This document shows, one piece after another, positions 5,199-57,282 of a stretch of 64,000 nt of DNA; positions within the stretch are counted from its first letter, which is position 1; each line of letters begins with the position of its first letter. A program made the translations under genes and the position numbers. The stretch spans positions 1 to 64,000 of the forward strand of contig MFYT01000070.1 in assembly GCA_001789205.1 (NCBI GenBank). Direction: 5' to 3'. The DNA comes from Candidatus Raymondbacteria bacterium RIFOXYA2_FULL_49_16. Its GTDB lineage: Bacteria; Fibrobacterota; OXYB2-FULL-49-7; XYB2-FULL-49-35. The notes beneath the pieces are model-generated. The model was not told the DNA's origin, did no database searches, and was given only the letters and a program-made list of their open reading frames with translations.

Positions 5199-5226
5199 TG
5201 TCAAACAAGCGCATATAGTGCACGGC

Positions 5227-6366: not shown

Positions 6367-6429
6367 AACATATTCTAAAAACAAAATAATGATATGTCGT
6401 TCATGCTGCCGCATGGCTGAAGTGAAACC

Positions 6430-37773: not shown

Positions 37774-37816
37774 GGGTGGCGATCTTAATTTTTCACATTG
37801 ATGTAATGAGCATGAA

Positions 37817-38476: not shown

Positions 38477-38478
38477 AT

Positions 38479-39627: not shown

Positions 39628-39655
39628 AATGACAGCTGCAGCGGCGTTAAAAGTT

Positions 39656-40414: not shown

Positions 40415-40461
40415 ATATTAAAATATAAAAAATGTTATGGCAGCCATGCAGGGGCTGACCG

Positions 40462-41235
40462 TTAGAAAATGACTCTCATTATTAAAAACGATCCAATAGT
40501 AATTGTTGTAAACGCCGCATCAGCGGACCCGAAAGCCCTTTCAGCCTGGCAGCACGACACTGTTCCGTGAAACCCGCGCGAAAGCATGGCATCGTGGATG
40601 CGGGTTGCGCGGGCCATTGACCTGAGCAGAAGCGAACCAATGAGCCGCGCGGTCACGCCAATGCCTTTGCCTTTTCCGTTGAACGAACGCAGATCGCGCG
40701 CCTGTCTCATTGAGTGCGCTTCATCAGCAAGCACAAAAGTATACCTGTGCAGGAGCATTAGCTGCGTGGTGAACGCCTCGGGCGCATGCAGCTTTCTCAG
40801 GGCATGGCATATGTGATCAAACGGCATGCACGCGGCGATCGTCAGTATCGTGAGCACTGAAACCAGGGCCTTGAGAAGAATGACCAGACCGGAGATCGTG
40901 CCTGAACTGATCGTGAGGCCCGCGATTTCCAGAAGGGGCCTGCGATCGAAAAAGGGGTTTGCGGCTGCCGAAAGAAGGATAAACGGGGAAATGATCAGCA
41001 GCCGTTTTATAATCGGTTGAATGGGCACGCCCGATGCTGCGATCAGGAACAGCGGTATTGCCGCAAACACAAGAACACCGGTCAGATCAAATTTCGGGAC
41101 AGATATGAGCAGCATTGTGTACATGAACCATGAAACCAGTACGGCGCGGGCATCAAGGCGCGCAAAAAAGGACACGGGATGGGCATGGCTGTGGCCGTGG
41201 TGGCTGTGAAGAAGTGCCTCTTTTATTGCTGTCAT
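40462..41235 (-). CDS. cbiQ: CbiQ-like ECF transporter T component
   Basis: 257 residues with about 5-6 membrane helices. The coupling motifs of T components are visible: SMRQARDLRSFNG and SMARATRIHDAMLSRGF (the two A-R-G type helices that bind CbiO). The N-terminus is His-rich (HSHHGHSHAH), typical of nickel/cobalt systems. Its ATG overlaps the stop of cbiM by 4 bp (ATGA). Confidence 0.88.
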   Translation of the reverse strand: MTAIKEALLHSHHGHSHAHPVSFFARLDARAVLVSWFMYTMLLISVPKFDLTGVLVFAAIPLFLIAASGVPIQPIIKRLLIISPFILLSAAANPFFDRRPLLEIAGLTISSGTISGLVILLKALVSVLTILTIAACMPFDHICHALRKLHAPEAFTTQLMLLHRYTFVLADEAHSMRQARDLRSFNGKGKGIGVTARLIGSLLLRSMARATRIHDAMLSRGFHGTVSCCQAERAFGSADAAFTTITIGSFLIMRVIF

Positions 41236-42251
41236 GCGTGTCCGTGGGTTTTTGTTCTGCGCCGGATAATATACCCCATGCAGCCTGCAAGCGCAAGCAC
41301 CATGACACTGCCCGCAATCCCCGAGACGGATGTACCTGCAGATACAACAGAGCTGTTTTTATCAGTTTCTGTTCCGGTTGCCGTAGCCCTGAAAGAATAG
41401 TCCGGTAAAAAGGCCAGCTTTCCCTGTATCGCCTCAAGCCGCGAGGTAATGACGTTTGTTCTGCCTTCCAATTCCTCTTTGCCGGTCACCTTTGCCATGG
41501 ACCATTCAAGCCCATCCGGGTGTGATGAGGCGAACCATGAGACCATGCCGCCAACCACAAGTGCCAGGATGATAAAAGGGACGATAATATTTCTGCCCAT
41601 ATTCTGGCCGGTTGCACCTGACAATAATGATGGCTGTGCTTTGCGAACAAATGAAAGTACGCTGAATACAACCAGGCCTTCAACCAGGCCTATGCAAAAA
41701 TGAATGGGGAGCATGAAAAGAACAAAGGTCTTGAAGGGCAGCTCGGTAATGCCGGATAAAACGGTCTCTAAAATTACAGATGATGCACCCATGAGCAATC
41801 CAATATCAGCGGCAATGAAACTGGCAAGGGCCAGCCGTCCTTTGTTTTCCATGTTTCCGGCAATGGGCTTGAATATGAGTGGATATGCAATGAAAGCAGG
41901 AAAAAAGGCAAGATTAAAGATATTACATCCAAGGGCAAGCAGGCCGCCATCGGCAAAAAAGAGGCATTGTATGGTCAGCACAGAAGCCAGCGTCAGAAAT
42001 GCCCTGTACGGTCCCAGAAGCGCTGCTAATAGCAGGCCGCCGCCGATGTGGCCTGACGAACCGGTGCCGGGAATGGTGAAGTTGATCATCTGCGCGGCAA
42101 AAATAAAAGCGCCGGTGACCGCCATGAGCGGGGTTTTAAATGTATCTTCGTCTTCGCGTATTTTTTTCGCTGAATAAGCGATCAGGCCGCCGGAAACAGC
42201 CCAGAAAGCGCCACCGACAACAGGATTTAATAATGCGTCTGACATGTGCAT
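41232..42251 (-). CDS. cbiM: CbiM-type nickel/cobalt ECF S component with C-terminal PDGLE/CbiN-like domain
   Basis: About 339 residues from the ATG at 42251, which gives the canonical N-terminus MHMSDALLNP. In CbiM/NikM the N-terminal amine and His2 bind the metal. The signature GTGSSGHIGGGLLAALLGP follows near residue 75. From about residue 225 there is an extra helix-loop-helix with SSHPDGLEWSMAKV, the PDGLE motif of CbiN/NikN-like subunits, so this is a CbiMN or NikMN-type fusion. It is the first gene of its operon and divergent from the 42462 operon; 210 bp lie between them. Confidence 0.9.
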   Translation of the reverse strand: MHMSDALLNPVVGGAFWAVSGGLIAYSAKKIREDEDTFKTPLMAVTGAFIFAAQMINFTIPGTGSSGHIGGGLLLAALLGPYRAFLTLASVLTIQCLFFADGGLLALGCNIFNLAFFPAFIAYPLIFKPIAGNMENKGRLALASFIAADIGLLMGASSVILETVLSGITELPFKTFVLFMLPIHFCIGLVEGLVVFSVLSFVRKAQPSLLSGATGQNMGRNIIVPFIILALVVGGMVSWFASSHPDGLEWSMAKVTGKEELEGRTNVITSRLEAIQGKLAFLPDYSFRATATGTETDKNSSVVSAGTSVSGIAGSVMVLALAGCMGYIIRRRTKTHGHA

Positions 42252-42345
42252 GGTATCGGTTCCTTGTACTGAATGTCTAAAAGATAATAATCGCAAAGGC
42301 CGGCCATTAACCGAGACCCTTACTGTCATAATAGAATGGGATTAT

Positions 42346-42887: not shown

Positions 42888-42987
42888 AGACAATTCACCA
42901 GATTTCTGACAGGGACAACCGCAATAATTGATATGCGGATATCCCTGTTGTGATGCCGAACCAACGATTCAAAAAAGAGGTGTATTT

Positions 42988-44070
42988 ATGGTTTTTCCAG
43001 CGTTTTTTGTTTTTATGCTGAGCTTTCTATTTGTTTCGGACGGAATTGCTCAGTCGTTTCAGGGAGGCGCGGTCACTCAGTCAAAAATGAACCCTGCGAT
43101 CGCGGCTGTCGGCGAGTTCGAGGCATCGGCAAGCGATGACAAATCCCTCGCGCACCCCCATCAACTGCGTTTTCTTGGCGGAGACCTTGATATCTATGCT
43201 TATGTCGATCCTTACTTTAAAGCAGAAATGGTTATTTGCCTTCATCATAAACACGCAGGTTTTGAAGAGGCTTATCTCGAAAGCATGACACTGCCTGCGG
43301 GTCTTAAACTCAGGATAGGAAAATTCAAGGCGCCATTCGGCAAGTGGAACACGGTTCATGGCCATGCGCTCCCGGTCATCAACATGCCCGCATGCTGGGA
43401 ACGGGTGTTCGGAGAAGACGGCCTGAATGAATCAGGCATTGCCGTTTCGGAGATGATACCGTTTCTGCCAACATACCACGAAATCATAGGCCTGGCCCTC
43501 AACGGCGAAAACCAGACAGCTTTCAACGGGGCCGCTACAAGGGACCTTCTCTATATGGGACATCTGAAGAACTTTTTTGAACTGGGAGGGTACCGCACGC
43601 TGGAAATAGGGATATCCCATGCAAGAGGCCGTAATAACAATATCAACAGCCCGAGGCTTTACACCAATGTTACCGGCGCCAACGCAATATTCCAATGGAA
43701 GAATTCCATGCTTCCCTTGGAACGCGCATTCACGCTTTGGAGCGAGATCTATTATAACCAGCGGGACACATTGGATGTTGATGACGTTCAGAAGACGCAT
43801 ATTTCGACGGGGTATTTTATACTGGGCAAGCTTCAGTTTTTAAAAAGATGGTATGCAACGTGCATGTACGATTATTCAGGCGACCCCGTTAATACAGGTG
43901 AAATCATAAGAAACGTCAGCACCGGGGTTTCGTTTCAGCCTTCTGAATTCTCGGAAATCAAACTTGAATACAGGCGGACCATGAGTGACCGTAGCGAGCA
44001 AGACCCCATTAACGAATTAAAGGCAATGGTTGTGTTCACCATCGGCGCCCACGGTCCGCATGCATTCTAA
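42988..44070 (+). CDS. Outer-membrane beta-barrel protein linked to metal uptake
   Basis: About 360 residues from the ATG at 42988 (AAAAAGAGGTGT upstream). It has a signal peptide ending GIAQS, then alternating strand patterns and a terminal Phe (GAHGPHAF), as in outer-membrane barrels. Conserved-looking segments are LRIGKFKAPFGKWNTVHGHALP and the repeated GY-LGKLQFLKRWY. It resembles porin-like proteins located next to Znu-type transporters; several His-rich patches (LHHKHAGFEE) are visible. It ends 16 bp before the ZnuA-like start. Confidence 0.6.
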   Translation: MVFPAFFVFMLSFLFVSDGIAQSFQGGAVTQSKMNPAIAAVGEFEASASDDKSLAHPHQLRFLGGDLDIYAYVDPYFKAEMVICLHHKHAGFEEAYLESMTLPAGLKLRIGKFKAPFGKWNTVHGHALPVINMPACWERVFGEDGLNESGIAVSEMIPFLPTYHEIIGLALNGENQTAFNGAATRDLLYMGHLKNFFELGGYRTLEIGISHARGRNNNINSPRLYTNVTGANAIFQWKNSMLPLERAFTLWSEIYYNQRDTLDVDDVQKTHISTGYFILGKLQFLKRWYATCMYDYSGDPVNTGEIIRNVSTGVSFQPSEFSEIKLEYRRTMSDRSEQDPINELKAMVVFTIGAHGPHAF

Positions 44071-44086
44071 AACCAAGGAGAAAACA

Positions 44087-45097
44087 ATGAAATACGCAAT
44101 ATGCCTGTTAGGAATTTTTGCTTTTTGCATCAATGCACACGCTGGAAAGCTCAGGGTCATCGCGACTTTTCCGGACCTGCAATGGGCGGCAGAGCAGATT
44201 GGAAAAGACGAGATCACCGTCGAGGCGCTTGGACAGGGCAATCAAGACCCTCATCATGTGGACGCTAAACCTTCGTTCATGCTCAAATTGAACAAGGCGG
44301 ATATTTTCATCCAGAACGGAATGGAACAGGAAATCGGCTGGGTGCCTCCGTTACTTGAGGGTGCGCGCAACGCAAAAATATTAAAAGGTTCGCCGGGTTT
44401 TATCGATGTTTCCAAAGGTATTCCGGCAAAAGAGGTCCCCGTGACCCTTGACCGCAGTCTTGGCGATGTCCACCCCGGGGGTAACCCGCATTTTTTAATC
44501 GATCCGGGCTGCATGCTTGTTGTTTTCGATAATATTTGCGAAGGATTTGAGAACAACAGGCCCGAAAAACAGGAATACTTCAGGAACAACCTTTCCGTTT
44601 CAAAAAAGGCCCTTCTTGCCAGGATTGTTGGAGAGGCCCTTGTCACGGCGCTTGGGACCGACGAGGCGCAGCGTTTTCTTATGTCAGGTGATCTTGAACG
44701 TTCATTGAACGAAAACACCCTGCCTGCGCCGCTGGGCGGATGGCTGTTGAAGGCGCGGCCGTTAAAGGGAACCAAGATCATCTGTTACCACCAGTCATGG
44801 AAATATTTTACCGATCGTTTTGGTTTGAATATAGTGGGATATCTGGAGCCGAAACCGGGCATACCGCCAAGTCCGGCCCATCTGCTGCAGGTAAAAAACA
44901 GGATCATAGGCGAAAAAATCCCCCTGATAATCACCGATACGTATAATAGCCCCAAAACAGGTGAAAAATTGGAGGAACTGACAGGGGCAAGGGCGCTTTG
45001 GCTGCCCAATCTGGTCAGGGGCGCTGCTCATATAAAAACGTACGATGAACTTATTGAAAACAACCTGAATGAAATGCTGAAAGCATTATCAAAATAA
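44087..45097 (+). CDS. znuA: ZnuA-like metal ABC transporter substrate-binding protein
   Basis: About 336 residues from the ATG at 44087 (AAGGAGAAAACA). The signal peptide is KYAICLLGIFAFCINAHA. Ligand positions of cluster A-I (PF01297) proteins are intact: DPHHVDAKPS (His), GGNPHFLID (His), CYHQSWKYF (His) and IITDTYNSPKTG (Asp). It lacks the long His/Asp-rich loop of classical ZnuA. Specificity for Zn, Mn or Fe cannot be read from sequence; zinc is the default guess. Confidence 0.85.
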   Translation: MKYAICLLGIFAFCINAHAGKLRVIATFPDLQWAAEQIGKDEITVEALGQGNQDPHHVDAKPSFMLKLNKADIFIQNGMEQEIGWVPPLLEGARNAKILKGSPGFIDVSKGIPAKEVPVTLDRSLGDVHPGGNPHFLIDPGCMLVVFDNICEGFENNRPEKQEYFRNNLSVSKKALLARIVGEALVTALGTDEAQRFLMSGDLERSLNENTLPAPLGGWLLKARPLKGTKIICYHQSWKYFTDRFGLNIVGYLEPKPGIPPSPAHLLQVKNRIIGEKIPLIITDTYNSPKTGEKLEELTGARALWLPNLVRGAAHIKTYDELIENNLNEMLKALSK

Positions 45098-45110
45098 GAA
45101 AGGCGGAAAA

Positions 45111-45935
45111 ATGGAAGTGATCATCTTCATGCTGCCCGCGTTTATGGCAGCCCTTGTTATCGCGGGCATTCATTGCTATCTTGGACTGCATATTGTTTCA
45201 CGGGGCATCATTTTTATCGATCTGTCCCTTGCGCAGATCGCGGCCCTGGGCTATGCAATTGCCCTTATCCTTGGTTACCATATCGGAGACTGGCAGGCCA
45301 TATTCATGGCGCTTGTTTTTGCCGTGATAGGTTCATTGCTTTTCAGCTATGCCCAGCCGCTCGAGCGACGCATTCCTCTGGAGGCCGTCATAGGCATCGG
45401 ATATGTCGTTGCCGCCGCTGCAGCGGTTCTTGTGCTTTCGTTTTCTTCGTCTGGCACAGAGGACTTTGAAAAACTCGCCATGGGGAACATCCTTGTGGTC
45501 TCCTGGCATGACATCACGAAAACAATCGTCATTTACGCCGGCGTCGGCCTGCTTCATTGGTTTTATAGAAAGAAATTCATGGAAGCAACCTTCAACAGGG
45601 CATGCACACGATCGAAATTGTGGGATTTCTTGTTTTATTTATCGCTGGGAGTGGTGGTCACCTATTCAGTGGCAATAGCAGGGGTGCTTCTGGTTTTCAG
45701 CTACCTGGTTATTCCGGCCGTATGTGCGCTTATTTTCTGTGATACGATAAAAACCCGCCTGATATGCGGGTGGCTTGTCGGTTTTATAATATCGGCCCTG
45801 GGCCTGTTGATCTCATTCAAATTCGACCTTCCAACTGCGCCGGCCATAACGGTCTGTTTTGGGATATTGTTCATTGTTATTGCGCTTGCCGGCTTGAAGA
45901 TGGGCAGATATAATGGCAATGGGGCCTGTCGGTAA
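45111..45935 (+). CDS. znuB: ZnuB-like metal ABC transporter permease
   Basis: 274 residues with about eight membrane helices. SLAQIAALGYAIALILGYH and the later VLLVFSYLVIPAVCALIF fit the ABC-3 family (ZnuB/MntB/SitC). It starts 13 bp after znuA. No ZnuC-type ATPase is encoded next to it; the gene after it is convergent. Confidence 0.87.
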   Translation: MEVIIFMLPAFMAALVIAGIHCYLGLHIVSRGIIFIDLSLAQIAALGYAIALILGYHIGDWQAIFMALVFAVIGSLLFSYAQPLERRIPLEAVIGIGYVVAAAAAVLVLSFSSSGTEDFEKLAMGNILVVSWHDITKTIVIYAGVGLLHWFYRKKFMEATFNRACTRSKLWDFLFYLSLGVVVTYSVAIAGVLLVFSYLVIPAVCALIFCDTIKTRLICGWLVGFIISALGLLISFKFDLPTAPAITVCFGILFIVIALAGLKMGRYNGNGACR

Positions 45936-45974: not shown

Positions 45975-46679
45975 TTATATCTTACTGTCATCAAGGCAGA
46001 GTTCGGCTTTTTTAAAATCAACTCCTTCGGAATGGGTCTTTCCGGCGTTGAGCAGAACATACCGGCTGCATACACTGGCGGCAAAGGGAATGTCGTGCGT
46101 GGCGACCAGCATTGCGGCATTAATTCCTGAAAGCGTTACGGCGAGTGAACGCTTGCCTGCCGGATCGAGCGCGGACGAGGGTTCGTCGAGCAGCAGCAGG
46201 GGAGGGGCCGCAACCAAGGCGCCTGCGAGCGCGACACGCTGGCGCTGGCCGTGCGACAATTGAAAGGGTGATTTGTCCGCCAGGTCCGCAGCGCCAAGGC
46301 GGGCAAGCGCGTCATGCGCCCGTGCATGCGCTTCTTTTACCGGTATTTTCCTTCGCGTCAGCGAAAAGGCCGTGTCGTCAATCACACGGGGAAACAATAT
46401 CTGGTCCTCGGGCGTACTGAACAGAAATCCGATGCGGTCGCGGACCGTATCTGCGGTCTTTTTCGTCAGTTCAATCCCGTCAACTACGATTCTTCCCGTG
46501 AATGGCAGCAGGCCGGTTGCGGCAAGGAGAAGGGTCGTTTTACCGGAGCCATTAAGACCGAAAAGCGCCACACGTTCATTGCTTGAAACGCCCATGGTGA
46601 TACCCGACAGGACAGATGCGCTTTTATCGTGGTACCTGACTGTGACATCCTTAAAAATCAGGGTTTTCTCAGAGGTCAT
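45975..46679 (-). CDS. CbiO-like ECF transporter ATPase (TonB-linked operon)
   Basis: 234 residues. Walker A GLNGSGKTT, signature LSHGQRQRVALAGAL, Walker B LLLLDEPSSALD, switch His VATHDIPFA. It overlaps the CbiQ-like gene by 4 bp. It is the last gene of the operon that starts with two lipoproteins at 51467. It could also energise the orphan ZnuB, but that is unlikely on family grounds. Confidence 0.85.
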   Translation of the reverse strand: MTSEKTLIFKDVTVRYHDKSASVLSGITMGVSSNERVALFGLNGSGKTTLLLAATGLLPFTGRIVVDGIELTKKTADTVRDRIGFLFSTPEDQILFPRVIDDTAFSLTRRKIPVKEAHARAHDALARLGAADLADKSPFQLSHGQRQRVALAGALVAAPPLLLLDEPSSALDPAGKRSLAVTLSGINAAMLVATHDIPFAASVCSRYVLLNAGKTHSEGVDFKKAELCLDDSKI

Positions 46680-47419
46680 GACAGTATCCTCAGAACAAGG
46701 GAACCAACAGCAATACAGCCGGTTGTGACAAGCATCAGAATATCTTTACCTGCATAACAACTGACAGAGGCAGGAAGCCCGTCACGAACCGTGTATCCGC
46801 GCATGGTCATTGCCATTGCCGTTCGTTCGGCTCGAAACAGCATACGGCCCATCCAGACAACAGGGAACGAAAACAGGAGCCGCACATGCAGGCCGCGGCC
46901 GGCGCCCCGCAGGCGGATTGCGCGGATGACCCGTCCGGTTTCCTCGATCAAAAAGAGCGTCTGGTTCAGCATCTGAACAAGCAGCACAGCGGCGGTACGG
47001 GGCAGCGGCAACCCTGCGAACGCAGTGTGCGCCTCGCTCAGTGGGAGGGCCGTTATGGTCGCAAACGAGATGAACAGGCACAGGCTGGCGCGAAGCGCTA
47101 TGGTTCCGGAAGCGGCAAGGCGGCCTGCCATTGCGCTGTTATGTGCGTCTCCAGCCTGTATCCATGGCGTCATCAGAAGGATGGGAACAAACAGCGCTCC
47201 CGCGATTCCAAGGCAGAGGACGGCACGTCGAAGGGGCATGCCGCAGAGAAGGCACCAAAGAGCGGTCAATCCAACTGCGCAGGCGGTTCCTGCAGAAGTG
47301 CTAAACGGCAGGAGCATGCAGGATGTGAAAACCGCTGTTCCGCACAGCATCCTGGTTTGAGGCAGAAGCCGGAGCGCAGGACCGTTTCCACTGCCCCACA
47401 TGTCAAAAGGTACATTCAT
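46676..47419 (-). CDS. CbiQ-like ECF transporter T component (TonB-linked operon)
   Basis: 247 residues with about five membrane helices. The coupling helices appear as VIRAIRLRGAGRGLHVR and RAERTAMAMTMRGYTV. It has no His-rich N-terminus, unlike the other CbiQ of the window. It overlaps both neighbours by 4 bp (ATGA), evidence for tight translational coupling with the methyltransferase gene and the ATPase gene. Confidence 0.85.
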   Translation of the reverse strand: MNVPFDMWGSGNGPALRLLPQTRMLCGTAVFTSCMLLPFSTSAGTACAVGLTALWCLLCGMPLRRAVLCLGIAGALFVPILLMTPWIQAGDAHNSAMAGRLAASGTIALRASLCLFISFATITALPLSEAHTAFAGLPLPRTAAVLLVQMLNQTLFLIEETGRVIRAIRLRGAGRGLHVRLLFSFPVVWMGRMLFRAERTAMAMTMRGYTVRDGLPASVSCYAGKDILMLVTTGCIAVGSLVLRILS

Positions 47420-48048
47420 GACTGCGTTTTTGACAGTGGTTTTCGCGCGCTTACCAGGTATCTGGTATCGCTATCAACCATTTTATCAACAATAAAACCG
47501 GTCTGTGCCAGCAGGTCGCCGGTCTTTGCCGCAGGCTGGAGTATATGATCGCGTACGGCTTCAGAGGCTTCAGAATGAATTTTATTTACAGCGTCCCTCG
47601 AAATCAGGTGCCATATATCAAGAGCGCCTCCTGGCTTGAGGAGATTCAGGAACACTGCTGCGGCTTTTCGCGGATTTGTCAGGTGGGGCCATACGGAATA
47701 GCAGATGATCCGGTCAAACGGCCCGGTGTCGTTGTCTAGATGTTCCACTGCGTCGCAGAGCCATGTCACCCTGGGGTCGCGGATCTTTGATTGCGCGATG
47801 GCGATCATGCGGTCCGACATGTCGATAGCGGTCACCTTTCCTTGGGCAGATACTTGACGAAGAATCGCGGCCGTAAGGTTGCCTGTCCCGCACCCGACAT
47901 CAAGAACATGATCGTCCGGTTGTATACCAAAGCGCGCAAGTTCCGCGTCGAGTTTTGCCGGAAGCGTTGCCAAATCTTCCCAAGAATCCCATTTAGAGGC
48001 AATGGAATCAAAAAAAGCTGTGCTTTCTTTTTGGCAGCATTCACACAT
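47416..48048 (-). CDS. Class I SAM-dependent methyltransferase with N-terminal Cys cluster, in an ECF operon
   Basis: About 210 residues. I start at 48048 (MCECCQKES) because AAGGAG lies 8 nt upstream; the frame is open 5 codons further. The Rossmann signature is VLDVGCGTGNLTAAIL, then VTAIDMSDRMI and KAAAVFLNLLKPGGAL. The first residues C-E-C-C form a Cys cluster that could bind metal. The closest type is the ubiE/arsM-like small-molecule methyltransferases. Its position between the ECF S and T genes implies that it modifies the imported substrate, or a chelate, in the cytoplasm. Confidence 0.75.
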   Translation of the reverse strand: MCECCQKESTAFFDSIASKWDSWEDLATLPAKLDAELARFGIQPDDHVLDVGCGTGNLTAAILRQVSAQGKVTAIDMSDRMIAIAQSKIRDPRVTWLCDAVEHLDNDTGPFDRIICYSVWPHLTNPRKAAAVFLNLLKPGGALDIWHLISRDAVNKIHSEASEAVRDHILQPAAKTGDLLAQTGFIVDKMVDSDTRYLVSARKPLSKTQS

Positions 48049-48574
48049 GTCTCGCTCCTTCATGAGTGGTCAAACCACCTGTTTTTCGTGAAATGCGGAG
48101 AATAGCGGGAATGACCGCTATCATAAGTATGATGCCCGGCCATCCGCTGAGAAGCGATGCGCCTGCGATGAATTTCGCCGGCAACTGCATGCACCGGGCC
48201 GCCGCGTATATGAGGCCCACGCCAATACATCGGCCAAGAAGCAGCACCGGAACCAGGATAGCCAGATCATGCAGGCGCGGGAAAGACAGGCGCAAAGCAG
48301 AGATGAGAGAACTCATAACAGCCAGTTCAATGCTCATGATTGGCCCAACAGGCGGATAAAAGGGAGGCATACCCGTGGCTGCGCCTGAAAGCAGGGGGGC
48401 CAGAAGCGCGGTCAGGCCGGCAGGCAGGGGCCTGACAAAGAAACCGAGTGTTACCAGCGGCAGGTACATGGGCATGAACACATGGCCCAGATGAAACAGG
48501 TGGAACACCAGCGGTAAAAGCAGAGCTGCCGCGCCAAAGACACCGCAATACGCGATTTCACGAGGGTGTATCAT
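48041..48574 (-). CDS. ECF transporter S component of unknown specificity
   Basis: About 177 residues from the ATG at 48574, one base after the stop of the TonB-receptor gene. Five or six membrane helices are visible. The block LVFHLFHLGHVFMPMYLPLVTLG, followed by GAATGMPPFYPP, is typical of a large uncharacterised ECF S family. The His residues near the start might coordinate metal. It overlaps the methyltransferase gene by 8 bp. Confidence 0.75.
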   Translation of the reverse strand: MIHPREIAYCGVFGAAALLLPLVFHLFHLGHVFMPMYLPLVTLGFFVRPLPAGLTALLAPLLSGAATGMPPFYPPVGPIMSIELAVMSSLISALRLSFPRLHDLAILVPVLLLGRCIGVGLIYAAARCMQLPAKFIAGASLLSGWPGIILMIAVIPAILRISRKTGGLTTHEGARHV

Positions 48575-48575
48575 G

Positions 48576-50468
48576 TTATATCCCCAGCCGGAGTCCGGCA
48601 AGAAAGTGAAGCCCGGGCATACTATAGTATTTAATATATTCGTATTGTGAATCAAGCAGATTTCTCACCAGTACGTAGGGTTCCACGGTAATGTCTGATG
48701 GGCTGACGGCTTTGTACCGCAGAGAACCGTCAAAGACAAGGACATCGTCGAGTTGGTCGCGGCAATAGTTATTCATATAAATATCATGCACCCACTCGCC
48801 GCTCACGGCGCAAACCAGGACGCCATGAGCCATGGTGCGGCTCCATTCGCCGCGTACATTTGCCTTTGCCCCAGGGTTCTGTTTGGTAAAACGCCCCACG
48901 TTTTGCCAACAACCAGTTAGAAAAAACCTGAAAGGGTTCCATGCTTTTAGTTCCAATTCCCCCTCAATCCCGGATATTTCCATCTGGTCTATGTTGACGA
49001 CCTCTGCCGAGGGCCACATGCCGAAATATTTTATCAGGTTTTGCGCCCATGTTTTGTATACCGAACATGAAAGATGGAGGAAACGGGGCGAAAGTTCAAT
49101 GCCAGCGTCCCAGTTGGTTGCATGTTCGGGTTTGAGGCCGGGATTTGCGGTCGGATAGGGAAGATAGAGTTCGCGGAGCGTGGGCTGCCTGAAATTGCGG
49201 GTAATGCGGGAGTGGAGTGTCAGCAACTGGAACACACCCCATGCAATCCCCGCCTTGTACAATGGAACATATCCGTACCGTGTGCTATAATACGCCCTGA
49301 CTCCGCCCACAAGCGTGAGGCCGGGCTTGGGAGACACGGAGAGTTGGCTATATGCTGATCCTCCGGACATGGGTTTCACTGTTTCAGTCTCATCGGTGAT
49401 CCGGTTTGTAACCAAACCATCGATATGGTCGCCTCCTGCGCCAAGGAGCAGCTCAATTTTTGAATCAAGGAAACTGCGTGTTGCCTCAACCGTTGTTCCT
49501 GCAGTGTAGTCCCGGGAAAAAAAGCCGTCATAAAGCCGGTGTTCCCCAAAATTGAACCAGGGGACAACGGAGAGGTTCCAGTCAATAAGGGACATCTTGA
49601 GACGGCCGGTGAACGTATTTCTGAGCACCTCGAACCATCGGTCCGTGTAGGGATGGAACGCGGGACCGGGATCGCCGCCATTAAGATGGATGGCTTTGTC
49701 TCGTAATGATAGCGTGGCGCTCTGTCCCAGATGGAAGCGCACGCCAATCTGGCCCGCTGTGCTGCTGCCCGATGCGCCGTCCCGGTGTCCATCCGTGGAA
49801 AACGAGGAGAACCCGCCAACTGCGTCAATGGCGCCGTTCTTGCAGAACAGTGAAATACGGTCCCGAAAGGTATTGAAAGTGCCATAGGCAGCGTCGTGGT
49901 CCAGGGAAACGCCATTGTTGCCGGGCCATTTATTCTCGATGGCAATAATTCCTCCCATGGCATTGGTGCCATAAAGCACCCCGTCGCCTCCTTTTATGAC
50001 AAGGACCCTGTCGATGAGGGCCGGTGAAAAAGCGTCGGGTATGGGGTGGCCGAATATACCCATGTAATCGGGCGCGCCATCTTCAACAACGAGTATCTGT
50101 GAATTGGGACTGCCGCCCAGGCCGCGGATGTAGATTCCGCCGGAAGCTCCGGAAGAAACGCCGTGCAGGCCAGCGCCCCTGCTTGAGACATAGATGTCTG
50201 CGGATTCCTGCGAAAGGGCCTCAAGCGCGGTGGTCCGTTCCGTGGAGCGGATTTGTTCCCCTGCGACCACCGTTGGCCTGTGTGTAGCGTCTTTTGAAAT
50301 TGGTTTGTCTATGACCAGTATCTCATAATCAGGATAAATGGCGGCTGTGTCAATCAGGTCTCTCTCGGGTATGGAAGGAGTGCCTGAACCGGGGCCTGTA
50401 CCTGCAGGAGGTTCTGCGCCAACCGCGATAACGGCCAAAAAGGCAATCAATACCGGCTTAATGTCCAT
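48576..50468 (-). CDS. TonB-dependent outer-membrane receptor
   Basis: About 630 residues from the ATG at 50468 (MDIKPVLIAFLAVIAVGA as signal peptide); the frame is open to 50507 but would overlap the upstream gene by 50 bp. A plug domain with GGIYIRGLGGSPNSQILVVEDG, then LYGTNAMGGIIAIENK, is followed by a barrel with the usual NLLDSQYEYIKYYSMPG box and final aromatic-poor strand. It is closest in layout to small vitamin/metallophore receptors (BtuB/CirA-like). A C-terminal Ile, not Phe, ends the barrel. It belongs to the lipoprotein-receptor-ECF operon. Confidence 0.88.
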   Translation of the reverse strand: MDIKPVLIAFLAVIAVGAEPPAGTGPGSGTPSIPERDLIDTAAIYPDYEILVIDKPISKDATHRPTVVAGEQIRSTERTTALEALSQESADIYVSSRGAGLHGVSSGASGGIYIRGLGGSPNSQILVVEDGAPDYMGIFGHPIPDAFSPALIDRVLVIKGGDGVLYGTNAMGGIIAIENKWPGNNGVSLDHDAAYGTFNTFRDRISLFCKNGAIDAVGGFSSFSTDGHRDGASGSSTAGQIGVRFHLGQSATLSLRDKAIHLNGGDPGPAFHPYTDRWFEVLRNTFTGRLKMSLIDWNLSVVPWFNFGEHRLYDGFFSRDYTAGTTVEATRSFLDSKIELLLGAGGDHIDGLVTNRITDETETVKPMSGGSAYSQLSVSPKPGLTLVGGVRAYYSTRYGYVPLYKAGIAWGVFQLLTLHSRITRNFRQPTLRELYLPYPTANPGLKPEHATNWDAGIELSPRFLHLSCSVYKTWAQNLIKYFGMWPSAEVVNIDQMEISGIEGELELKAWNPFRFFLTGCWQNVGRFTKQNPGAKANVRGEWSRTMAHGVLVCAVSGEWVHDIYMNNYCRDQLDDVLVFDGSLRYKAVSPSDITVEPYVLVRNLLDSQYEYIKYYSMPGLHFLAGLRLGI

Positions 50469-50943
50469 AAGGCCCTGGTACGGAAAAATCCTGTTCCATG
50501 TCATCAAGGGTGATTTCGATTATAGAATAACCACCACTGCTGACATTCGTGGAAGAGATGGTCTGATAATTATACCAGAGCGGTGTTGCCGAAATGATGG
50601 AACTGTCCTTTATTGCAGCCGCGGTATCGCACATGCAGAGTGTGTCGATCAGGCCGTATTCCACCTGCCGCACGCAATATGCGTATGGATCGAATTTCTG
50701 GAAATGGACCTTGCCCTGTCCGCGCATGCATCGCCGCGGCGACGTGGCTTCCTCATATTTCAGTACCGTGTTCCAGACAATGCCGTTGATGCACGGGTTT
50801 TTTATAAGGACCTGTGGGGCGATTTTGTTGATAACGACCACTTCCGGTTGCATGATGGAACAGGACAGCAGTGAGAAAAAAATAAAAACGGCGGCCGGGA
50901 AAAGCCGCCGTTGCAGGATTCTGCGATTATTCAGTCCAGGCAT
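50458..50943 (-). CDS. Cys-rich lipoprotein of unknown function, upstream of the TonB receptor
   Basis: 161 residues with a lipobox (FSLLSCS, about residue 28). The mature part holds several Cys (KNPCINGIVW, SPRRCMRGQG, YAYCVRQ, DTLCMCDTAA), a likely metal- or cofactor-binding set. I recognise no family. Its start overlaps the end of the previous gene by 13 bp, and its signal-peptide codons contain the terminator-like hairpin at 50875-50912. It probably assists the TonB receptor at the cell surface. Confidence 0.6.
   Translation of the reverse strand: MPGLNNRRILQRRLFPAAVFIFFSLLSCSIMQPEVVVINKIAPQVLIKNPCINGIVWNTVLKYEEATSPRRCMRGQGKVHFQKFDPYAYCVRQVEYGLIDTLCMCDTAAAIKDSSIISATPLWYNYQTISSTNVSSGGYSIIEITLDDMEQDFSVPGPYGH
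50875..50912 (-). terminator. Intrinsic terminator-like hairpin inside the lipoprotein gene
   Basis: On the minus strand AACGGCGGC pairs with GCCGCCGTT (9 bp, loop of 8) and is followed by TTTTATTTTTTTC. This is a textbook intrinsic terminator, placed just after the first gene's stop but inside codons ~10-24 of the second gene, where the U-tract encodes FIFF. It could attenuate transcription from the first lipoprotein gene into the receptor and ECF genes. Confidence 0.65.
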
Positions 50944-51467
50944 TCTGGATTGTTCGTGCGCTGGTCATATGGCAGGAACTGGTACTCCGGATACAGGTCA
51001 AGTATGCGGTCGTACAAGCTGTCCGGAATGGGCTGGACGCCTTCGGGCGGGCACGGCCCCTGGTGGTTTGGCGCGTTGATGGCAATGGTGCGCGTTTGGC
51101 CGTCAACAACCTCCTCCTCAATTTTGCTTGCCACGGGCAGGCAGTTTTGGGTGCTGCAGGCGGTGTCGTTCCAGGCAAGGACCATGAGAACGTAGTCGAT
51201 TCCGGGAGAGACTTCCCTGGCAGCGCTTGAATCGCCCTGAAGGACTTTGCCGAACTCGACCCCGCGGTAGTTACATTTACAGATGGTCCATGGCGGTTTC
51301 ATGGCCATGGCCGGGTTGTTGAAATCGTTCTTTACCCGGACAGTGGCGACAGGATCCTGTTCATCAGGGCCCTCGGGGTCGGTGGTCTTGTTGCACGATG
51401 GAAGAAGCGTGCCCAGCATAACCGTCATTGCGAGGGTTAATGCGATGGCGAGATTGAATTTCATCAA
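50931..51467 (-). CDS. Cys-containing lipoprotein, first gene of the TonB-ECF operon
   Basis: 178 residues with a lipobox (TLLPSCNK, about residue 25). The mature sequence has Cys at CKCNYRG, DTACSTQNCLP, GPCPPEG and NPECLD, seven in all, and reads like a beta-rich lipoprotein; I know no family. AAAGGAGG is not seen, but AGAGGCTTTG lies ahead of the start. The palindrome at 51486-51512 lies 19 bp upstream, probably over its promoter. Confidence 0.6.
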   Translation of the reverse strand: MMKFNLAIALTLAMTVMLGTLLPSCNKTTDPEGPDEQDPVATVRVKNDFNNPAMAMKPPWTICKCNYRGVEFGKVLQGDSSAAREVSPGIDYVLMVLAWNDTACSTQNCLPVASKIEEEVVDGQTRTIAINAPNHQGPCPPEGVQPIPDSLYDRILDLYPEYQFLPYDQRTNNPECLD

Positions 51468-51485
51468 AGCCTCTCTATTTTCCTA

Positions 51486-51512
51486 GTAGCACTAATATAA
51501 TAAACGTGCTAC
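51486..51512. promoter_or_regulatory. Operator-like palindrome GTAGCAC-N13-GTGCTAC
   Basis: Perfect 7-bp inverted repeats separated by 13 nt of AT-rich DNA, centred about 32 bp upstream of the lipoprotein start. The N13 spacing is like that described for NikR-type sites in deltaproteobacteria (GTGTTAC-N13-GTAACAC), though the half-sites are not the same. One half-site, GTGCTAC, recurs at 42364-42370 between the other metal operons. The regulator itself is not in the window. Confidence 0.5.
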
Positions 51513-51573: not shown

Positions 51574-51882
51574 CTATACCGCGGTCTCGCCGTTCTCCTT
51601 GGTGCTTATCCTGACCGCTTCCTCCACCGGACACACATAGACCTTGCCGTCCCCGCGCAGGCCTTCGTGCGCGGCATCCAGAATGGTGTTGATGACCTTC
51701 CCGGCCAGGCCGTCTTTGCAGAACACCTCCACGCGGTCCATTTTTACTAAATCAATCGCCGGGCCGCGGCCAAATCCCTGCACAGCGCCATGACTCATGC
51801 CCGTCAGGCCTTCGATTTCCCGCAAGGCTTCGGCGACTTCCGGGAGCTTGTGGGATTTGACATATGCTATTACCTGTTTCAT
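51574..51882 (-). CDS. P-II-like regulatory protein with shortened T-loop, in metal efflux operon
   Basis: 102 residues with the P-II/GlnB fold: MKQVIAYVKSHKLPEVAEAL at the start, VQGFGRGP at the T-loop base, and GDGKVYVCPVEEAVRISTKENG at the C-loop. The T-loop is about a dozen residues shorter than in GlnB, with no Tyr51-like residue, so classical nitrogen signalling is unlikely. It lies 27 bp after the RND gene and is the last gene of the efflux operon. P-II-like proteins of this kind are known beside heavy-metal RND pumps. Confidence 0.8.
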   Translation of the reverse strand: MKQVIAYVKSHKLPEVAEALREIEGLTGMSHGAVQGFGRGPAIDLVKMDRVEVFCKDGLAGKVINTILDAAHEGLRGDGKVYVCPVEEAVRISTKENGETAV

Positions 51883-51909
51883 GAGAAGATCCTTTCGATA
51901 CGTTAGACG

Positions 51910-54900
51910 TTAATTCGATCCTCGCTCATTCCCCGGCACAAACCATGAGTAGAGCGCTGGTATGACAAACAATGTGAGAAGCGTTGATGTCACTAATCCG
52001 CACACAACGACCACAGCCAGCGGACGCTGCACCTCAGCCCCAAGGCCGCTCGAAAGAAGCAGCGGAGTGAGTCCAAGAGCGGTGGTGAGGGCGGTCATGA
52101 GCACGGGCCGCAATCGCATGACCGCGCCCTGGACAATCGCTTCACCAACCGTCGTGCCTTCTGTGCGCAGGTAGTCGATGAACGAGACCAGTACCACGCC
52201 GTTCTGTACCGCCACGCCGAAAAGGGCGATAAACCCCACGGCCGCGGGAACAGACAGGTATTCACCGGTCAGCAGCAACCCAAAAATTCCTCCAATAAGG
52301 GCAAACGGCACATTGGTGATTATAAGCGCTGCCGTGCGCACCTTTCCAAAGGCCATGTAGAGCATGAAAAAGATAAGCAGGATAGTGAGTGGTACAATAA
52401 TGGCAAGCCGGGCCATTGCCCTTTGCTGGTTTTCGAACTGGCCGCCAAATTCGATCTGGTATCCCGGAGGCAATTGCACATTGTTTTGAATCAGCTTCCG
52501 GATGTCCGCAACTACGCTGCCCATGTCTCGGCCGCGTACATTGGCCTGCAGGACCCACCGGCGCTGGTTGTTCTCACGGTTAATCTGGATAGGACCAATG
52601 ACTTTTTTAATTTCAGTGACCTGGGAGAGCGGTACGCTTCCCCCGCCTTGGGTGTGGACCAGCAAGCTGCCTACCGCTTCAGGATCATTTCTGTACTGCT
52701 CCTGATAGCGGACCTGGATACCGAACCTCCGGGTGTTCAGATAAATCTGATCTATTACTTCACCCCCGATGGCCAGTTCCACAATCTCAAGCAGTTCGGA
52801 TATGTCGACCCCATAGCGCGCGCACGCGTCCCTGTCCGCGATGATCTGCACCTGCGGCTGGCCAAAACTCTGTTCCACCGAAAGGTCAACTAGTCCCGGC
52901 ACATCAACAATGGCTTCCTTGATCTCCCCGGCCTTCTGGCGGAGAATATTCAGGTCATCGCCGTAAAGCTTTATGGCAAGCTGCGCCTTGATTCCCGAAA
53001 TGAGTTCATCGAACGCATTCTGGATGGGTTGCGTGAAATTGAGCGCTACCCCGGGATATACTGATAATTCCCTGTTTAGGGCTTCGACCAGCTGTTTTTT
53101 ATTTTTAAAACGCTTCCACGTATTCATATCGGTCAGTTCAATATGAATTTCAGCCGAATTAACCGGATGAGGATGACTTCCCGCCTCGGGACGGCCGATG
53201 CGCGAAACTGTCTCTTTGGCCTCCGGAAATTTGACGATCACCTGCTCCAGTTTCATGACAGTTTCCGTGGCTTTTTCAAGCGAAATGGACGGCGTCATGG
53301 TCACGCCGATAAGGATGGAACCCTCTTCAAGCGTGGGGATGAACTCAGTGCCAAGAAAGGGGACCATGCCGAGGCTTGCGACAAGCGCCGCAACGGCCGC
53401 GCCCACCACGGTCTTCTTTTTTCGAAGGGCCTTTTCAAGCAAGGGCTGATAGAGCTCCTTAATCCTGCGTACGACCACGAACTCCTTTTCCGCATGGCTT
53501 TTGAGCAGGAACATGGCAAGAACCGGCGCAACAACCAGTGCGGCAAGGATCGAACCCAGCAGGGCGAATGAAATAGTAAAGGCCATGGGTGAAAACATTT
53601 TGCCTTCCACGCCCTGCAGGGTGAATAACGGCAGAAAAACCAGTACAATTATAAGCACCGCGAATGTTATGGGCCGCCCTACTTCGTGCGCAGCCTGAAG
53701 TATGACCCCGAACTTGTTGTGGCTGCTGCCGTCTTTGGATGTCAGGTGGCGGTGAATGTTTTCCACCATGACAATGGACCCGTCGGCCAGCATGCCAATG
53801 GCAATGGCAATGCCGCCAAGGGACATCAGGTTGGCCGGCATTTTGGCAATCCCCATCATGAGCGCCGCGAAAAAAACACACAAGGGCAATGAGACCACGA
53901 CTATGAACGCTGACCGTATGTTGCCCAGGAAAAGCAGCAGCACAATACTGATGAGCACCGCGCCTTGCATAAGCGCCATTTTCACTGTCCCATTGGCTTT
54001 TTCGACTAAATTTGCCTGCTCGTAATAAGGGATGATTTTTACCCCTTCGGGCAACGATGTCTGGACTGTCTGGACTTTTTCGTACAGTTTTTTAATTACC
54101 TCCGCCGTGTTGGCGCCATAAAGCTGAAGAACAATACCGGAAACGACCTCCTCTTTCCCGTTTTTGGTCACTACGCCGCGCCGTATCTCTTTACCAAATT
54201 CAACCTGAGCTATATCGCCGATTTTAACCGGCACGCCGTTCACTGATGACACTGGTATGTGCCGCAGGTGTTCAAGCGAACCCACAAGTCCCAGGCCGCG
54301 GACCAGGTATTCTTCCGAGCCGATCAAGAGGAATTGCCCGCCCGCGTTCTTATTGTTTTTCTCAATGGCTTCGACGACCCGTTCCAGGGTCAGAGAATAT
54401 TTGTTGAGCGCATAGGGATTGATATTTATCTGATATTGAAGCACATGCCCGCCAACGGAGAGGATATCGGTCACCCCGGTCACGGTCTGGAGGCCGTATT
54501 TGACAATCCAGTCATTTATCTCACGAAGATAGGTGCCCTTTTCCTTGCCTTGAAGGTCAGTCGCACTGTCGGCAGTCAGGTAATAAATAAATATCTGGCC
54601 CAACCCCGTGGAAATGGGGCCAAGCGTGGGCGGTTCCAGTCCAACGGGCAGGGCGGCCATGGAACTGGCAAGCCGTTCGCCCACAATCTGCCGCGCAAAA
54701 TACATGTCGGTTTCATCGGTGAAATAGACATAGATAACGGCCATGCCAAAGGCTGACGTTGATTTGACATTGGTGACGCCGGGCAGGCCTTTCATCTTGG
54801 ATTCTATCGGGAACGTGATAAGGCGCTCTATCTCTTCAGGCGCCATCCCATGCGCTTCAGCGAAGACAGGTACCATGACAGGCGATATGTCTGGGAACGC

Positions 54901-55011
54901 ATCGACCTGGAGCCTGCTGTACTGGAACATGCCAAGCCCGGTGAGTGCGACAACAAGCACAATCACCAGCACCTTTTGTTTGAGCGCGAGTTCTATAAGT
55001 TTGTCGATCAT
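51910..55011 (-). CDS. CusA/CzcA-family heavy-metal RND efflux pump
   Basis: 1033 residues, the normal length. HME-RND features: first helix MIDKLIELALKQKVLVIVLVVALTG, large periplasmic loops, and helix 4 with GGIAIAIGMLADGSIVMVENIHRHL, which carries the proton-relay Asp and VEN. The AIG...ADG...VEN signature is neither the DFG...DGA of CzcA nor the AIG...DAA...IEN of CusA, so metal specificity is left open. The C-terminal half repeats the topology (SGLGAEVQRPLAVVVVCGL). It works with the periplasmic adaptor and TolC-like channel encoded upstream. Confidence 0.92.
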   Translation of the reverse strand: MIDKLIELALKQKVLVIVLVVALTGLGMFQYSRLQVDAFPDISPVMVPVFAEAHGMAPEEIERLITFPIESKMKGLPGVTNVKSTSAFGMAVIYVYFTDETDMYFARQIVGERLASSMAALPVGLEPPTLGPISTGLGQIFIYYLTADSATDLQGKEKGTYLREINDWIVKYGLQTVTGVTDILSVGGHVLQYQININPYALNKYSLTLERVVEAIEKNNKNAGGQFLLIGSEEYLVRGLGLVGSLEHLRHIPVSSVNGVPVKIGDIAQVEFGKEIRRGVVTKNGKEEVVSGIVLQLYGANTAEVIKKLYEKVQTVQTSLPEGVKIIPYYEQANLVEKANGTVKMALMQGAVLISIVLLLFLGNIRSAFIVVVSLPLCVFFAALMMGIAKMPANLMSLGGIAIAIGMLADGSIVMVENIHRHLTSKDGSSHNKFGVILQAAHEVGRPITFAVLIIVLVFLPLFTLQGVEGKMFSPMAFTISFALLGSILAALVVAPVLAMFLLKSHAEKEFVVVRRIKELYQPLLEKALRKKKTVVGAAVAALVASLGMVPFLGTEFIPTLEEGSILIGVTMTPSISLEKATETVMKLEQVIVKFPEAKETVSRIGRPEAGSHPHPVNSAEIHIELTDMNTWKRFKNKKQLVEALNRELSVYPGVALNFTQPIQNAFDELISGIKAQLAIKLYGDDLNILRQKAGEIKEAIVDVPGLVDLSVEQSFGQPQVQIIADRDACARYGVDISELLEIVELAIGGEVIDQIYLNTRRFGIQVRYQEQYRNDPEAVGSLLVHTQGGGSVPLSQVTEIKKVIGPIQINRENNQRRWVLQANVRGRDMGSVVADIRKLIQNNVQLPPGYQIEFGGQFENQQRAMARLAIIVPLTILLIFFMLYMAFGKVRTAALIITNVPFALIGGIFGLLLTGEYLSVPAAVGFIALFGVAVQNGVVLVSFIDYLRTEGTTVGEAIVQGAVMRLRPVLMTALTTALGLTPLLLSSGLGAEVQRPLAVVVVCGLVTSTLLTLFVIPALYSWFVPGNERGSN

Positions 55012-55031
55012 TTTTCAGGGCCTTTCTCCTG

Positions 55032-56039
55032 TTAGTGTCCATGTCCGGCATGGCCGCCGCCAAGCGACTTGAGCGTGAGTTGCGCTTTCAGTTCAAATGC
55101 CCCTTTGCACACATATTCGGCGTCCTTTGATAACCCGGAAAGTATCTCGGTATGGGACTTGCCCTGTACGCCCAATTGCACAGGGACCGGATGGTATTCA
55201 TCCCCGTCTTCTTTCATGAATACACAGGACTTCTCATTGATTATCTGGACCGCCTCGTTGCACACGAGCAGGACTTCAGTATCCGAAGTTATATCAAACG
55301 ATGCTTTTATGAATGTTCCAGGCCGCCAGATGTTGTTGGGGTTGGGAAGCACCACCCGGGCCGCCAGGCTGCGTGTGGCTTCGCTGAAAATAGGGCTGAT
55401 GTAACTGATTGTCCCGCTTGAAACGGTCTTTCCGCCAACCGCTTCGATTGTTACCCTTTGCCCGAAAGCGACTTCAGCCGCATCCTTGCCATATACGGCG
55501 ATGTTCACCCAGACCTCTGAGAGGTCTGCGATTATAAAGAGGTCCCTCTCTTCATTGACGAATTCGCCGGGAACCACATGTTTTTCAATTATTCTGCCTG
55601 AACCGTGGGCCACAACATTATACAGGCTGAGATTCTCATTGCTCTCAACAGTCGCCAAAACTTCGCCTTCTTTCACATGGTCCCCTATGTTTTTACGCAC
55701 CTCTTTGACAATGCCGGGAAAGCGCGGGACCACATGGACCACCTTGTCGCCATTGGGGACCACCTCACCGGGCAGTCCGAGCGTTTTTTTGACGCGTCCC
55801 ATCCGTACCTTGTCCGTGGCAAGGCCTATCTTTGCCGCGATCTTTTCGGGCAGGGCAACGGCGTCTTCCTCGCCCTCGTGACCATGACCGCTATGTTCCC
55901 CGCCATGTTCTTCAGGCACCACTGCTTTTTCTTCATGACCTTCTTTCCCATGCTCTTCATGGGCCTTTTCGTGTTTCTCTCCGCACCCAGGCGTCAAAAC
56001 AAGGGCGGCCACTGCCATGGCTATGATGATATTCCGCAT
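55032..56039 (-). CDS. Periplasmic adaptor of the efflux pump, His-rich lipoprotein (CusB/CzcB-like)
   Basis: About 335 residues from the ATG at 56039. Lipobox LTPGCGEK. A His/Glu-rich stretch follows (HEKAHEEHGKEGHEE, then GEHSGHGHEGEE) like the metal-trapping N-terminus of CzcB. The barrel-sandwich hybrid is recognisable: VHVVPRFPGIVKEVRKNIGD, then EGEVLATVESNENLSLYNV and RIIEKHVVPGEFV. The C-terminus is also His-rich (GGGHAGHGH). Length is near the low end for the family. Confidence 0.9.
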   Translation of the reverse strand: MRNIIIAMAVAALVLTPGCGEKHEKAHEEHGKEGHEEKAVVPEEHGGEHSGHGHEGEEDAVALPEKIAAKIGLATDKVRMGRVKKTLGLPGEVVPNGDKVVHVVPRFPGIVKEVRKNIGDHVKEGEVLATVESNENLSLYNVVAHGSGRIIEKHVVPGEFVNEERDLFIIADLSEVWVNIAVYGKDAAEVAFGQRVTIEAVGGKTVSSGTISYISPIFSEATRSLAARVVLPNPNNIWRPGTFIKASFDITSDTEVLLVCNEAVQIINEKSCVFMKEDGDEYHPVPVQLGVQGKSHTEILSGLSKDAEYVCKGAFELKAQLTLKSLGGGHAGHGH

Positions 56040-56061
56040 GATAATCGACTCCTTTTTTATT

Positions 56062-57282
56062 TTACTGTTGTCCGGTAAGTTCGATGATATCCGCAAGTGC
56101 CAGCCGGATTTCGGTTTCCGTGGTAAGGTAATCGCGCCAGGCGTCCACAAGTTCGCGCTGTGTGGTGATAAGCTCCACATATCCGCTTTTGCCCGCTTCA
56201 AAAAGGCGCCGTAATTCCACGAGCACTTCGCCTGTCTGGGGAATGACCCTCTCTTTCAGCTCAGTGGCCTTGAATTCGAGCTGGTCTATTTGGCCAAGAC
56301 TTTGCATCAACCGTGCATATAGTTCGTTCCGGAGTTCATCGGCTTTCTTGCCCGCGGCGCCTGTTCGATTTATGGCCGCGGCCACAGCATCCTTGTTCCG
56401 GTTAAACAGGGGTAGGCCTACGGTAGCGCCAAGGGAATAGAGATTATCGCCGGCTCCGGCATCGCGGGCATATCCGCCTTTGATCGAAAATTCAGGAACG
56501 CCTTGGGCGCGGCTGGCGTTTTCCTGTGCTATTGCAGCCTCGATTTCGGCAAGCGCGGCGTGCAGGAGAGGGCTTTGCTCCACATATGTTTCCAGGCTGT
56601 CGCGGATGGCGGAGCGTCTTGATGTCTGAAGTTCCCCTGAAACCCCTTGTATCGAGTTTTTCCCCGCGCCCCACAAGGCGCCAAGTGCAATAATGCTGTT
56701 TTCGTATTCACGTACAAGGGTATTTTGTTCTATGCGCAGAAGCGTGATGTCCTTCATGCTGCGCAAAAGTTCGGTCTTGCCCGAACGGCCTATTTCCACC
56801 TGCTTCTCTATGTTCGTTTTGATGCTTTCAGCAAACAGGATCAAGCTGTCGAGTTGTTCAATCTGCTTTTGATGGCTGAGTGCTTTATAAAAACGCCGGT
56901 GTGTCTCGGCAATGATTGCCGCCCGGCGGGTTTCAAGTTCAGCAAAGGCTTTTAGTGAATCGGCGCGGGCCATCCTGACGCGGGCCTTCCGTTTTCCGCC
57001 AAGTTCCACTGGTTGGGACAACTTCAGGCTTGTAGTGGCGTCCCCCAGGTTCTCGGTCTCGACTTCAAGCTCCGGATTGGGAAGTCTGGCAGCCTGGCGT
57101 AATCCATGGCGCGTTGCCGCCTGTTCCTTCAGCGCAGCCTGGATCCCGCCATTCTGTTCAAGCACATGTGCAATTGCCTTATTAATTGTCAGCGTCTCCT
57201 GCGCGCTGGGATGTCCCGGCAAAATGAAAAGCAGCAGAAGCGGCAACAGCGCCGTCTTTTTTAATGTGAATGTACTATCCAT
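56062..57282 (-). CDS. TolC-family outer-membrane channel (CusC/CzcC-like)
   Basis: About 406 residues from the ATG at 57282 (GGAGAAAGCTGT before it). Signal peptide ending PGHPSAQE. Two OEP repeats: LTINKAIAHVLEQNGGIQAALKEQ at the start, then LPNPELEVETENLG, and GLPLFNRNKDAVAAAINRTG for the second repeat. Long helical segments with A-A-K/E patterns form the tunnel. It starts the three-component CzcCBA-like set and ends 22 bp before the adaptor gene. Confidence 0.9.
   Translation of the reverse strand: MDSTFTLKKTALLPLLLLFILPGHPSAQETLTINKAIAHVLEQNGGIQAALKEQAATRHGLRQAARLPNPELEVETENLGDATTSLKLSQPVELGGKRKARVRMARADSLKAFAELETRRAAIIAETHRRFYKALSHQKQIEQLDSLILFAESIKTNIEKQVEIGRSGKTELLRSMKDITLLRIEQNTLVREYENSIIALGALWGAGKNSIQGVSGELQTSRRSAIRDSLETYVEQSPLLHAALAEIEAAIAQENASRAQGVPEFSIKGGYARDAGAGDNLYSLGATVGLPLFNRNKDAVAAAINRTGAAGKKADELRNELYARLMQSLGQIDQLEFKATELKERVIPQTGEVLVELRRLFEAGKSGYVELITTQRELVDAWRDYLTTETEIRLALADIIELTGQQ

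Follow-up and report, generated by a model that had tools for sequence, protein, structure and literature searches.

A seven-gene operon was analysed on the minus strand of the first 64,000 nucleotides of contig MFYT01000070.1, from Candidatus Raymondbacteria bacterium RIFOXYA2_FULL_49_16; this whole stretch is called the window below. The operon encodes two lipoproteins (LP1 and LP2), a TonB-dependent outer membrane receptor, the S, T and ATPase (A) components of an energy-coupling factor (ECF) transporter, and a class I methyltransferase (MT) dependent on S-adenosylmethionine (SAM). We lean, by a modest margin, towards reading it as a nickel-starvation operon, that is, a NikR-repressed importer of a nickel complex in which MT acts on the substrate and perhaps releases the nickel. 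It is practically certain that this is a conserved operon with the methyltransferase as an integral part, and the sequence evidence makes control by NikR very probable. The features are as follows, from the operator downstream.

51486-51512, no strand given: candidate NikR operator GTAGCAC-N13-GTGCTAC, with perfect 7-bp arms and a 13-bp spacer, 22-48 bp upstream of the LP1 start.
50931-51464, minus: LP1, Cys-rich lipoprotein with a beta-rich fold and no known family; lipobox LPSC24.
50458-50943, minus: LP2, second lipoprotein, with the invariant C-terminus PGPYGH; lipobox LLSC28.
about 48576-50468, minus: TonB-dependent outer membrane receptor, distantly like BtuB and heme receptors (PF00593, E 4.8e-26; PF07715, E 4.3e-14).
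48041-48574, minus: ECF S component of a new family, assigned from PF12822 matches within the family and from its predicted fold.
47416-48048 (open reading frame opens at 48063), minus: class I SAM-dependent methyltransferase, MT (PF13649, E 1.3e-21).
46676-47419, minus: ECF T component, divergent and CbiQ-like (PF02361, E 2.7e-4; ECF_T_CbiQ, E 1.8e-4; both below cut-off).
45975-46679, minus: ECF ATPase (A), CbiO-like (PF00005, E 1.3e-28; best NCBIfam match ECF_ATPase_1, E 1.5e-45, below its cut-off).

All seven open reading frames are adjacent and run from 51464 to 45975, with neighbours overlapping by 4-23 nt or separated by a gap of 1 nt, much as an initial annotation of this DNA had described them. 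The Pfam matches make the identities of the receptor, methyltransferase and ABC ATPase firm, while the CbiQ-like assignment of T is weak for the window protein; T homologues occupy the same place in the relatives. S, T and ATPase are encoded together, as in a group I ECF transporter with a dedicated energising module. By inspection, the start of MT is likely the ATG at 48048, which is preceded by AAGGAG.

A scan for S in public genomes gave 20 loci, every one of them metagenome-assembled, from Myxococcota, Acidobacteriota, Verrucomicrobiota/Kiritimatiellota/Lentisphaerota, Planctomycetota and others, and genome searches yielded further loci. The system is rare and patchy, being present in 3/168 genomes of the window's phylum (Fibrobacterota) and, in other, partly overlapping genome samples, in 7/284, 13/297 (2 very weak), 9/379 (1 weak) and 8/388 (4 weak). 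The claim that a methyltransferase lies within the transporter genes was borne out by the neighbourhood comparison, in which MT was found downstream of S in 39/39 loci and the order S, MT, T, A was kept; this count takes one locus per place, includes the window, and leaves out L020, L072 and L093, which are cut by contig ends. In locus L003, MT lies 5 kb further downstream of S, past inserted genes. A divergent acidobacterial clade, with S identity of 34-38% over the alignment, retained the order S, MT, ATPase. Its recurrence in distant phyla shows that the gene order did not arise by chance. In three metagenome-assembled genomes (L001, L015 and L019) S and MT form a single open frame of 384-389 residues, and these loci group in one supported clade together with the unfused L071, so there was perhaps a single fusion event. 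A further set of S-like proteins is more remote (L062/L063 and others from the L094-L098 regions, E 1e-4 to 3e-9); with no recognisable methyltransferase or NikR site, these were treated as other S families.

The deltaproteobacterial NikR operator, 27-28 bp long, has been published as GTGTTAC-N13/14-GTAACAC or its reverse (PMC545781), and the palindrome upstream of LP1 matches this consensus at 12/14 positions. When the whole genome was searched with a broad pattern for the window site, 3 matches were obtained versus 2 for the control, with fully palindromic arms only at 51486-51512. Among 32 upstream regions of the operon, 17 contained a match of at least 12/14 and 13 a match of 13-14/14; shuffled controls reached at least 12/14 in 0.42% and 13 never, and other windows of the same loci reached 12 in 0.27%. 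Matches in the relatives ran up to 14/14, many of them better than that of the window. For each operon the scored region extended at most 450 bp upstream and 20 bp into its first gene, and the reference was the independently published consensus (PMC545781); the first-gene starts were partly picked by eye and the shuffles preserved base, not dinucleotide, composition. The enrichment far exceeds what the choice of starts or the type of shuffle should explain.

A neighbour family that recurs across the loci is NikR by sequence. A nikR gene adjoins the operon in 14 loci (L001, L006, L012, L016, L020, L059, L060, L061, L064, L068, L070, L071, L091 and L092), and in L091 and L092 it stands directly before the receptor gene on the same strand. 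Genes for NikR (PF08753) were found in 22/23 system-bearing genomes, compared with 21/168 genomes of the window's phylum. The window genome has a single nikR, on the same contig (G000:C70:94705-95112; PF08753, E 1.1e-31). In L028 (7225-10302 of that locus, G000:C70) the genes downstream of this only nikR of the genome, and on its strand, are those for a DtxR-type repressor, feoA and feoB; the group may be a cluster linked to both nickel and iron.

Further links to nickel came from L003, where the genes inserted between S and MT (2894-7976) include a response regulator, NuoE/NuoF-like genes, [FeFe]-hydrogenase-like genes and LarC (Pfam 'Nickel insertion protein', E 3e-89). From our own reading of the sequences, the inserted subunits appear to be of the [FeFe]-hydrogenase type; NikR control of a nickel-free [Fe] hydrogenase has been predicted earlier (PMC545781). 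Matches to [NiFe]-hydrogenase families were present in 18/23 system-bearing genomes, the window's included, and lend weak support, since the family also catches related respiratory subunits. We take the metal to be nickel because the NikR operators, the nikR neighbours and LarC all point there, and the substrate probably contains nickel. Thus the metal half of the earlier proposal, import of a metal chelate or cofactor, has stood and can be narrowed to nickel, while the weight it had placed on a cysteine motif in MT has not.

A cobalt compound or corrinoid, with MT acting on it, was considered as the substrate. The receptor bears a distant likeness to BtuB, with a weak PDB match over part of the plug, and T and A are Cbi-like; in NCBIfam the window MT scored best against CpaM, a corrinoid protein-associated methyltransferase, though far below cut-off (62.8 vs 180 bits). 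However, neither the window nor the 19 loci tested had a vitamin or cobalamin riboswitch ahead of the operon, the regulator is NikR, and LarC and the [FeFe] hydrogenase in L003 point to nickel, which leaves a corrinoid substrate decidedly improbable. In L061 a minus-strand cobalamin riboswitch (3632-3816) lies beside a separate minus-strand TonB receptor gene; nikR and the nickel operon are adjacent.

The initial annotation had described S as a family with no known substrate, and this agrees with what we found. The single window S sequence had no Pfam or NCBIfam match, no member of the family matched a named vitamin S family above its curated cut-off, and the S profile had no sequence match among PDB chains up to E 10. 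PF12822 (ECF_trnsprt) was matched by 26 of 35 S-family members (best E 6e-8) and PF01891 (CbiM/NikM) by none of the 35. The AlphaFold2 model of S (pLDDT 90, pTM 0.85) was closest to S components, which made up all 20 of the best PDB folds (RibU, FolT, ThiT, BioY and the like; Foldseek E 0.02-0.9, probability 0.85-1.00, TM-scores 0.4-0.7), and neither NikM nor CbiM was among the 50 best fold matches listed. Given these folds, and weak matches to the FolT family model from five members (best E 0.002; none from the window S), S could belong to an ordinary vitamin ECF importer with metal genes nearby by chance. NikR operators and nikR neighbours recur over several phyla, however, the methyltransferase is conserved and no vitamin riboswitch stands at the operon, and we regard this explanation as very unlikely indeed. 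Both findings that had been named beforehand as speaking against the annotation thus went the other way: by sequence S lies outside the characterised vitamin families, and MT is conserved. Since S has a predicted vitamin-type fold and is under NikR, an organic nickel complex rather than a bare ion is suggested, and we consider such a complex somewhat the likelier form of the substrate.

The SAM motif of MT is intact, and H127, H152, H163 and Y202 are invariant across 34 MT sequences. Since residues D55, G57, C58 and G59 of the motif are also invariant, MT appears to be an active enzyme. Class I methyltransferases often carry a histidine at the place equivalent to H127, and one was also present there in an alignment with other class I enzymes; H152 and H163 may be more specific to this MT family. 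A C-E-C-C motif, to which the initial annotation had given weight, was considered as a metal site. It is present in the window MT and absent from all aligned relatives, and so is not a defining feature of the enzyme. An ArsM-type identity was rejected as well (46.5 vs a cut-off of 263 bits), the N-terminal cysteines not being conserved in relatives, and the match to the DVU_1556 methyltransferase model was below cut-off (59.5 vs 155 bits).

These residues bear on whether the system carries bare Ni(II), as NikM systems do, with MT as an accessory that serves as nickel acceptor or chaperone through its invariant histidines, or that modifies the transporter. NikR control would suit any nickel importer, the fusion of S and MT would suit a handover partner, and the invariant residues of S (H25, M36, M69, M80 and E83; R115 is invariant too) and H127, H152 and H163 of MT could bind metal. 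However, S is not CbiM/NikM in family or fold, and it lacks the N-terminal MH metal motif of NikM/CbiM: the window S begins MIHPRE, and the start varies in the family. The TonB receptor and two lipoproteins suggest a complex whose size or dilution puts it beyond porins, the H127 position is not peculiar to this enzyme, and the apparent activity of MT argues against an accessory role. Transport of the bare ion is thus rather unlikely.

Much the same gene evidence, together with the vitamin-type S fold, could also fit import of a small organic compound under nickel starvation, which MT would convert to a nickelophore or part of a cofactor, so that its role would be biosynthesis and not release. 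No further biosynthesis genes recur in the neighbourhoods, however, and a single methyl transfer would have to finish the product, which makes this alternative improbable.

Each lipoprotein carries a hydrophobic stretch at its N-terminus together with a lipobox cysteine (C24 in LP1, C28 in LP2). They had been described as being of unknown family, and indeed neither matched Pfam or NCBIfam. LP1 is 48-61% identical to the window copy in its relatives, and C103, C138, C175, H134 and W59 are invariant in 12 sequences, giving three invariant cysteines besides the lipid cysteine. Naming LP1 by its fold was attempted, and the AlphaFold2 model was confident (pLDDT 87), yet there was no convincing PDB match. 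The PGPYGH end of LP2 (50458-50478 in the window) is invariant in all 13 sequences, with one relative adding G, and its C-terminal histidine may be a ligand or docking tail. LP1 and LP2 accompany one type of receptor and not the other type. They were found in the window, in both relatives from its phylum and in many loci of the Myxococcota-like kind; in the truncated L003, LP2 is the only one of the two.

Under the nickel-complex reading, Ni-NikR would bind the 51486-51512 palindrome when nickel is plentiful and turn the operon off, so that in vivo NikR would act as a repressor, and the operon would be expressed when nickel is scarce. LP1, LP2 and the TonB receptor would capture the nickel complex at the outer surface and deliver it to the periplasm, and the vitamin-type S component, with its own T and ATPase, would move it over the inner membrane. 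MT, placed at the cytoplasmic end of S or joined to it in one protein, would methylate the incoming compound, and the methylated donor group of the ligand would let go of Ni(II). Ni(II), unlike iron, is not easily released by reduction. A SAM enzyme that frees a metal after uptake has a precedent in HmuW, from a heme uptake operon (PMC10404700). These two points, the second of them a parallel from anaerobic heme uptake, lead us to prefer release by methylation as the role of MT. Whether the imported compound is methylated we judge evenly balanced, and that methylation causes the nickel release is a tentative and rather doubtful suggestion. It is likewise doubtful that these operons represent a separate class of ECF importer, one whose SAM-dependent methyltransferase is a component of the transporter itself and, by methylating the ligand on entry, releases nickel from an imported organic chelate.

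Several points weigh against this interpretation. The window operator is imperfect at 12/14, and in the window genome nikR and the operon are about 43 kb apart. Of the upstream regions, 13/32 are at background level only (9-10/14), although several of these still show palindromic ATATTAC- or GTGCTAC-type sites. Bare Ni(II) is a possible ligand of the S pocket. The substrate of MT cannot be read from its sequence, because many class I families were matched, all below cut-offs. Both the organic ligand and its part as methyl acceptor are inferred. Distances between S sequences correlated with those between MT sequences (r 0.94 overall, 0.85 in the main clade; reached by 0/300 permutations), but S and ATPase were about as well correlated (0.93 and 0.74), and the test therefore indicates co-inheritance, not contact. 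Taken as a whole, the reading given in the initial annotation is partly supported: its core idea, metal-complex uptake through a TonB receptor and an ECF transporter with an integral methyltransferase, has stood, and the compound may, as it proposed, be methylated or demetallated after entry.

Other metal genes surround the operon in the window. Directly upstream, at 51574-56201 on the minus strand, are a gene for a small PII-like protein and CzcA/CzcB-like genes for metal efflux. Another metal ECF system, of the conventional kind, at 37054-42329 (minus) consists of CbiM with a PDGLE domain and CbiQ, and continues with lipoprotein-like and FtsX-type permease-like genes, the ATPase of the latter, and then a CbiO-like ATPase; such an export-like insert is unusual. 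Divergent from it, at 42928-45935 (plus), are genes for a possible outer membrane protein (no Pfam match), a binding protein of the ZnuA family and a permease of the ABC-3 type; no ZnuC was seen next to these genes.

To our knowledge, the way in which bacteria strip nickel from tight organic complexes once these have been imported is largely open, since Ni(II) is harder than iron to release by reduction. If the proposal is true, a nickel-controlled importer with a fused methyltransferase would be a testable answer to intracellular nickel release, and a vitamin-type S family would gain a nickel role. The system would also be a marker for nickel-limited anaerobes of sediments and digesters, and a corollary is that the environment should hold a nickel-binding compound which these bacteria import. 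Searches confined to a library of open-access papers turned up no account of an ECF system that is linked to NikR and includes a methyltransferase; what appears new here is the combination, in an ECF system for metal supply, of a different S family with an integral methyltransferase.

Among known systems, NikMNQO and NikKMLQO under NikR (PMC545781) are alike in their dedicated ECF T and A components, upstream NikR operator and role in nickel supply, but the S component here is PF12822 rather than CbiM/NikM (PF01891), NikN, NikK and NikL were not recognised, and the window system has, in addition, a methyltransferase, a TonB receptor and a pair of lipoproteins. The vitamin S components RibU, FolT, ThiT and BioY resemble S in predicted fold and size, with TM-scores mostly of 0.5-0.7, whereas S has no PDB sequence match, its own invariant H/M/E/R set and NikR regulation. 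FrpB4, FecA3 and CntO, listed as examples of TonB-dependent nickel uptake (PMC11247825), are by description alike in providing an outer membrane step for a nickel complex, a step that is here paired with an ECF system and lipoproteins. The anaerobic heme uptake operons with ChuW/HutW/HmuW (PMC10404700) likewise combine uptake with a SAM enzyme acting on the imported metal compound, but those are radical SAM enzymes that release iron from heme, whereas the enzyme here is a class I methyltransferase for which release is proposed.

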